Assembly (NCBI GenBank): GCA_028286725.1 | Contig: JAQBQZ010000001.1 | Location: 1 to 32,379 of the forward strand | DNA from: Candidatus Tayloriibacteriota bacterium | Lineage (GTDB): Bacteria > Patescibacteriota > Minisyncoccia > Phycocordibacterales > CAIRYW01 | Direction: 5' to 3' | Length of the DNA stretch: 32,379 nucleotides | Shown here: positions 11,600-30,531 of the stretch, one piece after another | Layout of the letters: every line of letters starts with the position of its first letter | Numbering within the stretch: position 1 is the first letter of the stretch | Position numbers and translations under genes: made by a program | The notes under the pieces: model-generated | The model's input: the letters and a program-made list of their open reading frames with translations, nothing else | What the model was told of the DNA's origin: nothing | Databases searched by the model: none

Positions 11600-12316
11600 T
11601 TATATTTTCAAAACCCACCTCTCAAGTTCTGTTTCAAAATTTACTTGTCCTCGATGAGCTTTGTGATACATATCAATGAGGCTTGATATTGCATTATTTA
11701 ATTCCTGCTCTTCCCAATTTCGAGAGAATGATTTTGCCTTGCTGTAGACATAGGGATTCAATCCCGCCTCGTCTGCACCTTTTGTTTTCTTTGCAAGAAG
11801 GATTGATTTCATCTGCCAGAATATTGTTCCATGAAGTTCTTCATCGGCAGTACCGTTATCGAGCTCACTTCGCAAGAGCACCCACGCATTCTTTTTGTCT
11901 TTGTCCCCTATCGCATCAGTCATCTTGAAAATGCTTGGGAATTTCTTTTCGGCTTTTTGTTTGACTCCGAATTCTTCCACCTTCTCTGCGTACTTTTTTA
12001 TTTTCTCAAGCGGTGCTTTGTTTACTTCACCTTCTGACCAAACAATAATATTCTCCGTCGCTTTCATTTCTTTGAGGAATTTTTGTATCATCTCTCCTTT
12101 TTCTTTATCGTCCAAAATGTCAGCAATCTTCGCGACAACCTTTCGTTCAAAAAGTCCTTGAGAAGCCGTGATCTCCTGGAGTACATTTTCGTCAATATTT
12201 TCTACACCAAAAGAAACAAAGCTCGCATCTGGCTTTTTCTTCTGCAACGCATCAAAAGTTGCTCGTGCAGTCTTTTGAATCTTTTCTCTGTCTGTTCCGT
12301 AATAAAAAAATATCAT
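11600..12316 (-). CDS. holA: DNA polymerase III delta subunit (clamp loader)
   Basis: 238-residue clamp-loader subunit that would open the DnaN ring (dnaN is at 25464). It begins MIFFYYGTDREKIQKTARAT, the HolA N-terminal pattern in which the P-loop is degenerate, and continues with LQEITASQGLFERKVVAKIA, ENIIVWSEGEVNK and the C-terminal collar helices (GTIFWQMKSILLAKKT, ISSLIDMYHKAHRGQVNFE). It is about 100 residues shorter than E. coli delta, as is common in CPR. The ATG follows the 3' end of structured element A by 4 nt; AGG at 12321-12323 on minus is the only Shine-Dalgarno-like sequence and lies in the base stem. Confidence 0.82.
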   Translation of the reverse strand: MIFFYYGTDREKIQKTARATFDALQKKKPDASFVSFGVENIDENVLQEITASQGLFERKVVAKIADILDDKEKGEMIQKFLKEMKATENIIVWSEGEVNKAPLEKIKKYAEKVEEFGVKQKAEKKFPSIFKMTDAIGDKDKKNAWVLLRSELDNGTADEELHGTIFWQMKSILLAKKTKGADEAGLNPYVYSKAKSFSRNWEEQELNNAISSLIDMYHKAHRGQVNFETELERWVLKI

Positions 12317-12320
12317 TTAT

Positions 12321-12539
12321 CCTAGAAAGTTTTATCCATTAAAGGCTTAATAGTAAGCATATTATGCTATAAATTAATGTTAAATTTAAGTATAGAGTTA
12401 TTGATGTTATTTGTCGAACAGCCTTTTTGTTATGCAACAGTGGTGATTAAAACATAAATATTACAAACTCTTCTCCATGTACAAATTAATCCATTCGCTA
12501 TTAAGGGCGGTTGCATAACGATGGATAAAATTTTAGAGG
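12321..12539 (-). ncRNA. Structured intergenic element, copy A (candidate cis-regulatory RNA)
   Basis: Fills the polA-holA gap. Plus-strand coordinates of the pairings: P1 12321-12339 with 12521-12539 (19 nt, mismatches at three positions), P2 12429-12438 with 12510-12519 (perfect GTTATGCAAC/GTTGCATAAC), P3 AAAGGCT 12341-12347 with 12420-12426. One nucleotide joins P1-P3 and one joins P2-P1, giving a tight three-way junction. Copy B (24675-24875) shares the ends, the AAAAAG joint and the P2 sequence, while stems covary. Read on minus it starts just after the polA stop and ends in CTAGG four nt before the holA ATG, so P1 would mask the Shine-Dalgarno. Function unknown. Confidence 0.65.
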
Positions 12540-12545
12540 ATGAAT

Positions 12546-14927
12546 TTATTTCAAATTCCCCCAATCATCTCCACATGATGCGTTCGCTACGATTGGTACA
12601 CCCTTGGCCATCTTTGAATCCATTATATTCTCCATCACACTCTTTATCTTTTCTGACACTTCTTTAACTTTACTTTCCTTGATTTCATAGATGAGTTCGT
12701 CGTGAATTTGAAGGAGGAGTCGCACATCTTTATCTTCTCCATAAATGCCGTCTATTTCAGTCATCGCAAGCTTCACAATATCTGCCTGTGTCCCCTGGAT
12801 CGGCGCATTGATCGCCATTCGCTCTGCCGCAGCACGGATAAACGGAAGATGGGATTTGATACCTTCAAAATATCTACGTCTCCCGTACATCGTTGTCACA
12901 AAGCCATTTTTGAGCGCGTCTGCCTTTACCCCTTCGAGATATAGAGCTAAAGTCGAGAATGTTTTGAAATAGTCATCATAAAATCTCTGTGCTTCTTCAC
13001 GAGAGCTTCCAAGGTTTGTTTTCAAGGCATTTACTCCCATCCCATAGAGGATTCCGAAGTTAATCACCTTTGCCTTTCGTCGCATATCTTTAGTGACCTC
13101 AGTTATCAGTACTCCAAACACTTGTGATGCAACCCCCGCATGGACATCCTCTCCACTCTTAAAAATCTCTTGAAGCTTCTGGTCATCTGAAAGAATCGCA
13201 GCAATTCGAAGCTCAATCTGTGAATAGTCAAAAGCGCAAAGTTTGAATCCTTTTTTTGCAATGAATGCATTTCTGATTGCTCGTCCAAGTTCTGTCTTGA
13301 TCGGGATATTTTGTACACCCGGATCCTTTGACGCCATTCTGCCTGTCGCAGCCCCTGTCTGAATAAATGTTGGATGGAGTCGCCCCTCTTCATCAAGAAG
13401 AGTTGGAATGACATCAATATAAGTACCGAGGAGTTTGGCGAGTTCTCGATGTTCCATAATGAGAGAAATGATCGGGTGCAAGTCTTTGAGTTTTTCGAGC
13501 TCGCTTTCTTTTGTCGACTTCGCTCCTCCTGCAGTTTTTTTCATATTCTTGCCGACGAGATTTAATTCATCGTAAAGCACAACACCAAGCTGTTTTGGTG
13601 AATCAACATTGAACTCATGTCCTGCATGTTCAAATATTTTCTTGTCTATTTTGTCGAGTTCTTTGTGATAATCTTTTGCAAGTTTTTTAAGATAGTCAGC
13701 ATCAATAGCAACACCTATGTCATGCATCTTTTTGATGATTGGAATGAGCGGCAGCTCAATCTTTTCGTATACAAATTCAAGCCCTTTCTTTTTGATCTCG
13801 TTTAAAATATTTTTCTTTGCTTCATCCGCATCCTCATGTTCAGAATATGCGAGCACATCTGATAGTTCAGGATTACTGATCGTTGAATTTAATACGAATG
13901 TCGCGATCTTTAGTTTTTCGATTTCTTCTTCGGAAAGATTGTGAGTTATTGTTTTAATCTCTTTTTTTGAATTATCTTCTTCACTTTCACCCACTTCACT
14001 ATTTCCATTCCCAAAGACAACATCGACTCTTGGTACCATACTTCGAAAATCAAATGATTTCAACATATTTTTGACATTATCAATCACAATATGTTCTCTC
14101 CAGGTTGTTTCAGGGAGTTTGAAATCGATCGGTGCATCACGACGAATCGTTGCGAGCATCTTTGAAAACACCGCTTCGTCTTTGTTGTTGGCAAGAAGTT
14201 CATAAATTCTTTCGGTTACTCCAATCTTTTTGAATTCTTCTTTTTTTCCTGCCTCAATCTTTTCATACATTTTTTCGATCGTTCCAAATTCCTGAATGAG
14301 TGTTGTTGCAGTTTTCTCTCCGATGCCTTTGATACCGATAATGTTGTCAGATGTATCTCCTCGAAGTCCCTTGTAATCTGTAAGTTGTAGAGGCTTAAAT
14401 CCAAATCTTTCTACCACTTCTTTTTCACCATAAGTCACCGTGTCTTTCACACCTTTTTTGAGAGTAAATACCCTCACACGCTCTCCTTCAATGAGCTGCA
14501 TCGTATCCATATCCCCTGACGCGATCACAATCTCAATTCCTTTTTCATCTTTCATTTGCTCAACAATAGTTCCAAGCATATCATCAGCTTCAAATCCTTC
14601 TTTGTCATATTCTGGAATTGAAAATGCGCGAAACACTTCTCTTGAGCGAATGATCTGAGACACAAGAGCATCATCAGTTTTTTTACGCCCCGCTTTGTAA
14701 GCATCATATGCGAGATGTCTATAGGTAGGCTTTGGAAGATCAAAACAAGCCGCAATGTAATCCGGCTTAAAATCTTCAATGAGTTTGAAAAGCATGAGAC
14801 AAAGACCATAGAGAGCCCCCGTCGGTTCACCTTTACTCGAGGCAAAGTCAGGCAACGCATGATATGCACGGTGAATAATTGCATGCACGTCGAGGAGAAC
14901 CAGTGTCTTTTTGTTGGATTTTGACAT
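12546..14927 (-). CDS. polA: DNA polymerase I, without a 3'-5' exonuclease domain
   Basis: 793-residue repair polymerase for gap filling and primer removal. The 5'-3' exonuclease (about 1-290) has LLDVHAIIHRAYHALP, KPTYRHLAYDAYKAGRKKTD, EGFEADDMLG, IASGDMDTMQL, GLRGDTSDNI and the GIKGIGEKTA helix-hairpin-helix. The family-A polymerase domain has motif A FDYSQIELRIAA, motif B RRKAKVINFGILYGMG and motif C LLQIHDELIYEI. Between them only a short linker with no DxE exonuclease motif remains, so proofreading is lost and the domain largely deleted. Start: TAAAAT lies exactly 6 nt before the ATG. Structured element A follows the stop, then holA. Confidence 0.96.
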   Translation of the reverse strand: MSKSNKKTLVLLDVHAIIHRAYHALPDFASSKGEPTGALYGLCLMLFKLIEDFKPDYIAACFDLPKPTYRHLAYDAYKAGRKKTDDALVSQIIRSREVFRAFSIPEYDKEGFEADDMLGTIVEQMKDEKGIEIVIASGDMDTMQLIEGERVRVFTLKKGVKDTVTYGEKEVVERFGFKPLQLTDYKGLRGDTSDNIIGIKGIGEKTATTLIQEFGTIEKMYEKIEAGKKEEFKKIGVTERIYELLANNKDEAVFSKMLATIRRDAPIDFKLPETTWREHIVIDNVKNMLKSFDFRSMVPRVDVVFGNGNSEVGESEEDNSKKEIKTITHNLSEEEIEKLKIATFVLNSTISNPELSDVLAYSEHEDADEAKKNILNEIKKKGLEFVYEKIELPLIPIIKKMHDIGVAIDADYLKKLAKDYHKELDKIDKKIFEHAGHEFNVDSPKQLGVVLYDELNLVGKNMKKTAGGAKSTKESELEKLKDLHPIISLIMEHRELAKLLGTYIDVIPTLLDEEGRLHPTFIQTGAATGRMASKDPGVQNIPIKTELGRAIRNAFIAKKGFKLCAFDYSQIELRIAAILSDDQKLQEIFKSGEDVHAGVASQVFGVLITEVTKDMRRKAKVINFGILYGMGVNALKTNLGSSREEAQRFYDDYFKTFSTLALYLEGVKADALKNGFVTTMYGRRRYFEGIKSHLPFIRAAAERMAINAPIQGTQADIVKLAMTEIDGIYGEDKDVRLLLQIHDELIYEIKESKVKEVSEKIKSVMENIMDSKMAKGVPIVANASCGDDWGNLK

Positions 14928-20480: not shown

Positions 20481-20489
20481 TAAACAAAT

Positions 20490-20546
20490 AAAAACTCTTA
20501 ACAAAATACAGCGCCCTTCGGGCGCTGTATTTTGTTAAGAGTTTTT
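20490..20546. terminator. Bidirectional terminator, 27-bp perfect stem
   Basis: Arms 20490-20516 and 20520-20546 are exact reverse complements with a TTC loop. They sit between the acidic-protein stop and the tyrS stop. The core ACAAAATACAGCGC is identical to the terminator at 30477-30531. Confidence 0.92.
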
Positions 20547-20554
20547 ATTGTAGC

Positions 20555-24412: not shown

Positions 24413-24670
24413 CTACCTTATATCACCCACCTTAAATCCCTTTTCTTTCAAAGTTGTAAGAATCATTTCTTTTCTCATAAAAATCTCAGTCTTCATATAC
24501 CCCGAAACATTAATATATAAAATATCAATTTTCAGATCAACTGTTTCAAACGGAATTTCAAACCCAGAGCACTCTGTGAGAGTCGCTACAAGCCTCTCCC
24601 TCTCTTCTCGAGGGTTCTTAAGATGGCGAAATTTCTCTAAAAGAGATGAAAGTGAGGATAGGTTGTACAT
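24413..24670 (-). CDS. Small DUF721-like protein
   Basis: 85-residue protein: helical N-terminus (SSLLEKFRHLKNPREERERL), then ECSGFEIPFETVDLKIDILY and VSGYMKTEIFMRKEMILTTL. The pattern of a short helix, a KxxxLYIxVSGxxKTEIFxRKxxIL strand-helix and a closing LKEKGFKV resembles short DUF721/DciA-like proteins found next to replication genes in CPR genomes. DciA is a DnaB helicase loader; this relation is tentative. The ATG lies 4 nt after structured element B, whose AGG is the only Shine-Dalgarno-like sequence. Confidence 0.55.
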   Translation of the reverse strand: MYNLSSLSSLLEKFRHLKNPREERERLVATLTECSGFEIPFETVDLKIDILYINVSGYMKTEIFMRKEMILTTLKEKGFKVGDIR

Positions 24671-24674
24671 TTGC

Positions 24675-24875
24675 CCTAGAAAATTTTAGCTGTTAAAAAG
24701 TCGATTGATTTACACCACAACATTGATATCCTGCCCCAATAATAAGCCTAGCAATTTAATTTTATCACAAAACTGAATCGACTTTTTGTTATGCAATATT
24801 AAACACGTAAATTCACACCAACCTTACATTGCGATACGAATACATATTACATAACGACAGCTAAAACTTTAGAGG
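24675..24875 (-). ncRNA. Structured intergenic element, copy B (candidate cis-regulatory RNA)
   Basis: Same architecture as copy A at 12321-12539. P1 24675-24693 with 24857-24875, P2 24788-24797 with 24846-24855 (one C-A mismatch), P3 24695-24706 with 24776-24787 (perfect 12 bp). Junction nucleotides match copy A: one base P1-P3, one base P2-P1. P1 differs from copy A at three positions, each compensated on the partner strand. On minus it begins shortly after the CYTH-gene stop and ends CTAGGGCAA-ATG at the DUF721-like gene. Confidence 0.65.
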
Positions 24876-24887
24876 GTGAATTTAAAA

Positions 24888-30011: not shown

Positions 30012-30479
30012 ATGGAAGATATTAAAGAAATCACAAAATCTCTCATAGATATGCTCGGTGTAGTCGAGACTACGATTGAGATTGTGGATCACAATGGCGG
30101 ATTTCTTATAAATATAAAATCTCCTGAAGAATATTCTCTTATTGGCCGAGAAAATGAGAAGTTTGAAGCGTTTTCTCATCTTGTTAAGAGAATGGTAGCA
30201 AAGAAGCGTGGTGAAGAGGTTCGAATCATAGTAGACATAAATGGTGTGAGGGCACAGAATGACGAACTTATAAAAAGTAAAGCAGCTATGCTTGCAGAGC
30301 GAGCACGGTCGTTCAAGATTGATGTTGAGATGGATCCGATGACCTCTTATGAACGAATGCTTGTCCATTCTCACTTAGAAGGACGACCGAATATAAAGAC
30401 TGAATCGATTGGTGAGGGAAAAGAAAGAAAGCTTGTGATTAGATTTGTAGAGGACATTGCTTCAGAGGATAAAATATAA
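30012..30479 (+). CDS. jag: RNA-binding KH/R3H protein Jag (KhpB)
   Basis: 155-residue RNA-binding protein, the usual partner gene of yidC (SpoIIIJ-associated protein; KhpB in pneumococcus, involved in cell elongation and sRNA binding). A KH-like domain covers about 1-80 (DMLGVVETTIEIVDHNGGFL, REVDINGVRAQ region), and a C-terminal R3H domain has ERMLVHSHLEGRPNIKTES and GEGKERKLVIRF. It lacks the N-terminal Jag_N domain seen in longer homologues. TAATAT ends 7 nt before the ATG. The stop codon lies in the 26-bp arm of the following terminator. Confidence 0.9.
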   Translation: MEDIKEITKSLIDMLGVVETTIEIVDHNGGFLINIKSPEEYSLIGRENEKFEAFSHLVKRMVAKKRGEEVRIIVDINGVRAQNDELIKSKAAMLAERARSFKIDVEMDPMTSYERMLVHSHLEGRPNIKTESIGEGKERKLVIRFVEDIASEDKI

Positions 30480-30531
30480 ATAAAACAAAATACAGCGCAC
30501 CCGAAGGGTGCGCTGTATTTTGTTTTATTTA
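30477..30531. terminator. Bidirectional terminator, 26-bp perfect stem
   Basis: Arms 30477-30502 and 30506-30531 are exact reverse complements with a GAA loop. It runs from the jag stop codon to the stop codon of the convergent gene, and its core ACAAAATACAGCGC is the same as in the 20490-20546 terminator. Confidence 0.93.

Follow-up and report, generated by a model that had tools for sequence, protein, structure and literature searches.

What occupies the gap between polA and holA on this Candidatus Tayloriibacteriota contig, where 229 nt fold into three helices around a three-way junction? The first-pass annotation of the window (the whole 32,379-nt stretch of DNA analysed) had described a two-copy structured RNA or folded DNA under selection, without a named family. 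We therefore ask what kind of element copies A and B represent, at what level their pairing is maintained and how they came to lie beside their neighbouring genes.

Two folded copies in the window

The three helices of copy A lie at the positions first proposed, approximately so for P2, and those of copy B bear out the claim that the two copies are laid out alike (Table 1). Copy A folds better than its dinucleotide shuffles (z = -2.9 for the minus and -5.0 for the plus strand), as does copy B (z = -5.6 and -5.8, respectively), and a covariance-model search of the window against Rfam 15 returned two tRNAs only, leaving the element unmatched. Loops were correctly described as lacking conservation, and consist of decayed or replaced coding sequence. 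A conserved middle portion, GTTATG..CATAACAAAAAG, had been taken as unpaired; it belongs to P2 and the 5' strand of P3, and in complete copies it is coding sequence of a nuclease (ATG CAA TAT ... TTG CAT AAC AAG AAA). The A of the holA ATG is the last A of copy A (12316), and AGGA in the right terminal inverted repeat is a candidate that may serve as the holA Shine-Dalgarno sequence. Elsewhere in the window, two perfect long hairpins with a common AACAAAATACAGCGC (20487-20549 and 30477-30531), with few other, weak matches in the genome, are possibly terminators.

Table 1. Positions of element copies A and B, their helix strands and the genes flanking copy A within the window
Feature	Position	Strand	Sequence	Remarks
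Element copy A, non-autonomous	12316..12544	-	TTCATCC...GGATAAA	229 nt, between polA stop codon and holA start codon
Copy A P1 5' strand	12521..12540	-	TCCTCTAAAATTTTATCCAT	left terminal inverted repeat
Copy A P1 3' strand	12320..12339	-	ATGGATAAAACTTTCTAGGA	right terminal inverted repeat
Copy A P2 5' strand	12508..12519	-	GTTATGCAACCG	contains ancestral nuclease start codon (ATGCAA)
Copy A P2 3' strand	12429..12440	-	CTGTTGCATAAC	counterpart of nuclease codons L29-H30-N31
Copy A P3 5' strand	12420..12426	-		
Copy A P3 3' strand	12341..12347	-		
Element copy B, non-autonomous	24670..24880	-	TTCACCC...GGGCAAA	211 nt, CYTH-domain gene on one side, ORF with ATG at 24670 on the other
Copy B P1 5' strand	24857..24876	-	CCCTCTAAAGTTTTAGCTGT	
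Copy B P1 3' strand	24674..24693	-	ACAGCTAAAATTTTCTAGGG	
Copy B P2 5' strand	24844..24856	-		
Copy B P2 3' strand	24787..24799	-		
Copy B P3 5' strand	24774..24786	-		
Copy B P3 3' strand	24695..24708	-		
polA	12546..14927	-		DNA polymerase I, upstream of copy A
holA	11600..12316	-		DNA polymerase III delta, downstream of copy A

A multicopy family with a nuclease gene in its complete copies

DNA searches of the whole genome (906 kb in 14 contigs), first with copy A and then with a query made by joining conserved arms, recovered 14 copies rather than the two first annotated. All 14 possess the long terminal stem P1, and most have the inner stems P2 and P3 around a three-way junction. Left arms follow the consensus TTCAYCC-TCTAAAG-TTTTATCTAT and right arms ATAGATAAAA-TTTTCT-AGGRTAAA, or clear variants of these, with a degraded left arm in one copy (C9, 174 kb), giving the general form TTMAYCC...GGRTAAA; loop length is strongly variable. 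We infer the exact ends from conservation together with a few interspecies empty sites rather than from recent insertions within a strain. A -10-like box (GATATACT or similar) lies in the P3 loop of many non-autonomous copies in this genome (L009, L010, L017, L018 and others), its distance to the right arm being nearly constant at 27-31 nt, and is absent from both coding copies.

These two longer copies (C12, 62.57-62.87 kb; C6, 11.69-11.99 kb) carry an intact 84-codon ORF that matches the GIY-YIG profile PF01541 at 50.8 and 44.2 bits (cut-off 22.6). Residues Y3-Y5, Y16, G18, R26 and R61-E62 are invariant in the nuclease alignment, comprising a YVY...YIG-type motif, an arginine and a glutamate for which catalytic roles are suggested by analogy. 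The nearest solved structures are UPF0213 proteins or small GIY-YIG proteins (1ZG2 and 1YWL), and no NCBIfam model matches the nuclease. A phage origin was rejected, as neither a PHROGs family nor a phage record matches the nuclease. Purifying selection acts on the ORF, with dN/dS values of 0.09-0.14 across five comparisons.

A complete element measures ~300 nt and has this ORF as its sole gene. The start codon falls within the 5' strand of P2 and the stop codon within the 3' strand of P1, so that the helices are built largely from coding sequence: the three-way junction arises from the nuclease gene and the terminal inverted repeats together, with P1 joining the ends, P2 the start to the middle and P3 the middle to the end of the gene. 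In the non-coding copy C9 (126 kb), the 5' half of the ORF is decayed but still recognisable, with 77% identity over ~121 nt. Given this remnant and the intact ORFs under purifying selection, copies A and B are degenerate, non-autonomous derivatives of the complete coding element.

Filled and empty sites among relatives

Among six species of one genus, copy numbers estimated from the matches listed were roughly 25-30 in G353, ~14 in G369, ~six in G294 and ~five in G189, and no copies were found in G221 and G149 at the search threshold. Several copies in this multi-copy genus are ~139 nt long and have lost one inner arm. In G353 (C63; L064, L150), neighbouring elements abut directly, the junction reading CGGGTTCACCCG, as if one had inserted in another's end.

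Orthologous empty sites were identified for polA/holA, ruvA, parB and hpf. At ruvA, the filled site in G294 reads ..GTAGTATCA[TTAACCCG..CGGGTAAA]TGATATCAAAAAT (element in brackets), G149 has the two flanks directly joined (82% identity over 400 nt), and G189 has an empty site (..TTGCATGATATCAAAAATT) that matches the prediction from the joined flanks; for parB and hpf, empty sites are likewise found in relatives. In G003, of the same family as our genome, polA and holA overlap (TAATGATTT) where the genome studied here has TAAA[TTCATCC..GGATAAA]TGATATT. The polA-holA stop-start junction of G002 (L291) and G013 (L310) holds elements that belong to this class but are of other types (TCCCGTTAGAGGTC.. 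and TATCCCGTACGAAAT..); it has been hit independently and is a recurrent target. The element, autonomous or degenerate, is therefore a mobile DNA element: it is multicopy, has inverted-repeat ends and is present or absent at orthologous sites. ATGAT or TAAAT can be read as a target-site duplication at single sites, yet these belong to the element, because, over 41 copies, most left ends read TTCA or TTAA and most right ends TAAA; no consistent duplication was found.

Insertion at start codons

The right end adjoins an ATG in 13 of the 14 copies in the genome, 4-6 nt from AGG and with the gene on the same strand. Across several genomes, TG directly follows GGRTAAA or a variant in 34 of 41 copies (a set selected for an ATG within 12 nt), the element's last A thereby completing the ATG; without that filter, three of 46 copies have no ATG within 12 nt (C5b and the two tandem copies in L064). 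Among nuclease ORFs bearing type I repeats (the type in this genome), 12 of 15 have a gene start at their right end, compared with one of 15 at the left. The downstream genes are mutually unrelated, many of them housekeeping genes, and the 14 sites share no flanking homology. One orientation and a fixed spacing would not be expected from a randomly inserting DNA transposon; by analogy with IS200/IS605, a single-strand mechanism with an asymmetric target would give both.

A nuclease ORF inside the element also invites comparison with a free-standing homing endonuclease gene, which would cut empty sites and be copied in by double-strand-break repair, the stems being cruciforms or by-products. 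GIY-YIG is a homing nuclease fold, and the intergenic insertion resembles that of phage seg genes. Homing, however, needs homologous flanks and would place copies at homologous sites only, whereas the 14 copies here occupy unrelated sites, with unrelated flanking genes at every one; non-autonomous copies have spread as well, and compensatory changes maintain the stems even where the ORF is gone. We consider homing unlikely.

Pairing probably at the level of DNA

The compensated P1 changes originally seen between copies A and B are real, and the signal became far stronger once more copies were added. In P1, 97.4% of cells are paired and double-sided changes occur at 12 of 18 pairs, amounting to 75 double-change cells (28 distinct arm pairs) that far outnumber single-sided intermediates. 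The stems covary very strongly, with a P1 covariation score of 0.43 against 0.143 in shuffled and 0.04-0.05 in slid alignments. Arms of the same copy match each other better than arms swapped within the same genome, the observed value being reached in three of 5000 permutations for our genome and in none of 5000 for genus g121.

RNA pairing is expected to tolerate G-U on the transcribed strand. With positions 5, 6 and 10 set aside, P1 has three G-T against two A-C among 782 cells (769 of them Watson-Crick), P2 has nine G-T against 26 A-C, and none of P1, P2 and P3 shows an excess of G-T over A-C; pairing thus looks to be at the DNA rather than the RNA level. Mismatches at P1 positions 5-6 (CT/CT) persist in nearly all copies, and position 10 is G-T in 34 of 46 copies and A-C in five. 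As palindrome correction would erase them, these retained irregularities are probably recognition marks. In a few copies (L018 at C5 83.2 kb, L147, L173 and L064), the left and right arms have exchanged the inner portion of P1 that bears the mismatches, with the core orientation unchanged and A-C replacing G-T. Covariation in P2 spans the coding boundary (ATGCAA/TTGCAT, ATGCAG/CTGCAT, ATGCAT/ATGCAT, GAATTATG/CATAATTC and GCATTATG/CATAATGC), with amino-acid changes in the nuclease following the pairing, and in L031, L148 and L197 P2 is entirely replaced by unrelated sequence that still pairs.

Template-switch (quasipalindrome) correction of inverted repeats may itself generate many of the double changes, and part of the covariation may come from this process instead of from selection on the fold. 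Taken further, the element would be mobile but its palindromes passive, all covariation arising by correction and the three-way shape having no function, as the vast excess of double changes over single-sided intermediates might suggest. Correction would, however, remove the mismatches at positions 5-6 and the G-T or A-C at position 10, all of which persist; the tracking of P2 pairing by nuclease residues and the rebuilding of P2 from unrelated sequence also count against passive palindromes, which we regard as an improbable account.

A structured cis-regulatory RNA would be a 5' leader common to 13 genes, in which P1 would control translation by holding the AGGR close to the start codon in a helix. 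Such a leader would fit the uniform orientation with the right end beside start codons, the folding better than shuffles, the pairing of right-arm AGGR with left-arm YCCT and the -10-like box that many non-autonomous copies have in their P3 loop. It accords poorly with downstream genes that have nothing in common, with complete copies filled by a nuclease gene, with presence or absence between congeners and with G-T no more frequent than A-C, and we judge it very unlikely. The initial description holds for the structure and for the lack of an Rfam match, but its reading as structured RNA under selection finds no support in that form: the element is mobile, carries a nuclease gene when complete, varies in presence between orthologous sites and has no G-U excess over A-C. 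An integron attC site was dropped as a candidate: the ORF lies in the inner stems, and there is no cassette array.

Distribution across the order and beyond

Homologues, for which a search of related genomes had been suggested, were found across the order, including its other families, and elsewhere in the phylum. The nuclease profile matches in 207 of 397 genomes of the order (E <= 1e-12), and inverted repeats enclose almost all of its 20 best matches. Of 90 ORFs examined across the order, 50 have flanking repeats at z > 4 against a null of shuffles; pairing flanks across loci is unsuitable as a null, as loci have repeats in common. Several repeat types occur: type I, with CCCT/G..A/CGGG and a long P1, and others with ATCCCGTTAGAGAT..ATCTCTAACGGGAT, ACCCTGTTAAATAA.. 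or CCCGTACGAA... Carriers of type I nucleases include Candidatus Taylorbacteria and Zambryskibacteria, and outside the order the phylum has a further type I element (L316). In some GIY-YIG loci (L142, L130, L119 and L093), the start of the ORF (ATGCCCTATTTTGTT) is repeated in inverted form directly after the gene, as another structural type of element. Small GIY-YIG genes also lie between long inverted repeats in Chelativorans (L283), Clostridia (L285) and Verrucomicrobiia (L236), e.g. GTCATCCTGAGCGAGG...CGAAGGATCTC. The repeat-flanked GIY-YIG class may be general beyond Patescibacteria. A literature search yielded no account of a GIY-YIG element in bacteria that is bounded by terminal repeats.

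A proposed mechanism of movement

We propose, with a probability of roughly 0.6, that copies A and B descend by degeneration from a minimal mobile element that is moved as a folded single strand by its GIY-YIG nuclease and inserted in one orientation at A|TG. The chemistry of this movement, as we infer it, would begin with recognition of the folded single strand by the nuclease, the conserved P1 mismatches (CT/CT and G-T) marking strand and end. The nuclease would nick the element ends as well as a target at A|TG. Repair or ligation by the host would complete the oriented insertion and leave no obvious target duplication, the terminal A of the element rebuilding the ATG. GIY-YIG enzymes hydrolyse DNA and cannot join strands, and insertion would therefore need a partner. 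Intact copies would supply the nuclease that moves degenerate ones in trans. Insertion would be nearly harmless even in a tightly packed genome, because the stop codon of the upstream gene is retained and the ATG rebuilt. A regulatory side effect is conceivable, in that transcripts initiated upstream would pair AGGR with YCCT, while the -10-like box in the P3 loop could yield a transcript without the left arm.

To the broader proposition we assign somewhat less than an even chance: that this is a new class, widespread in Patescibacteria, in which a stand-alone 84-residue GIY-YIG nuclease, as the sole encoded enzyme, mobilises its own self-folding gene, along with decayed copies of that gene, as single-stranded DNA that enters start codons and rebuilds the ATG. 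If true, small GIY-YIG nucleases, which are common in annotations and mostly without a known role, would be tied to the mobility of folded DNA without a recognised transposase, and selfish DNA would be seen to survive in genomes nearly free of intergenic space through stop/start insertion and a restored ATG. A coding sequence paired with its own non-coding ends also provides a clean test of DNA-fold against protein constraint, and related repeat-flanked GIY-YIG genes may exist well outside the phylum.

Comparison with known systems

As in bacterial MITEs, short non-coding copies with terminal inverted repeats derive here from a coding element. Unlike MITEs, however, the element sharing their ends encodes only a GIY-YIG protein and no DDE transposase, there is no clear or consistent target duplication, inner stems are kept as well and insertion targets start codons. 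Phage seg genes are likewise intergenic selfish nuclease genes and fungal mitochondrial double-hairpin elements likewise mobile hairpin DNA, but the present element is bacterial, occupies many unrelated sites per genome and folds its terminal repeats with coding sequence. The UPF0213 and small GIY-YIG proteins (1ZG2, 1YWL) belong by sequence to the same family as the nuclease, whereas their entries are hypothetical proteins with no surrounding element described.

Ssn proteins are GIY-YIG nucleases that are site-specific for single-stranded DNA and have repeated cognate sites, such as the NTS in Neisseria. Our nuclease is similarly a small stand-alone GIY-YIG protein with multicopy repeats near genes: repeats near the nuclease gene and genome-wide (14 copies here and roughly 25-30 in G353) are candidate cognate sites. 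In contrast to Ssn, the nuclease gene lies within the repeat pair and the whole unit is mobile, with degenerate derivatives, a three-way junction and a start-codon target. IS200/IS605 and REP/RAYT systems transpose as single strands through terminal or subterminal hairpins with conserved mismatches, and, like this element with its own mismatch-bearing hairpins, keep a fixed orientation to a short target, leave no obvious duplication there and have non-autonomous derivatives; complete copies of the present element nevertheless lack an HUH/Y1 transposase and encode a GIY-YIG ORF only. We conclude that the element, which may form a separate class, resembles in its working a single-strand transposon that has MITE-like derivatives and lacks an HUH or DDE enzyme, and that its nuclease is similar to the Ssn family in size and in its candidate cognate repeats.
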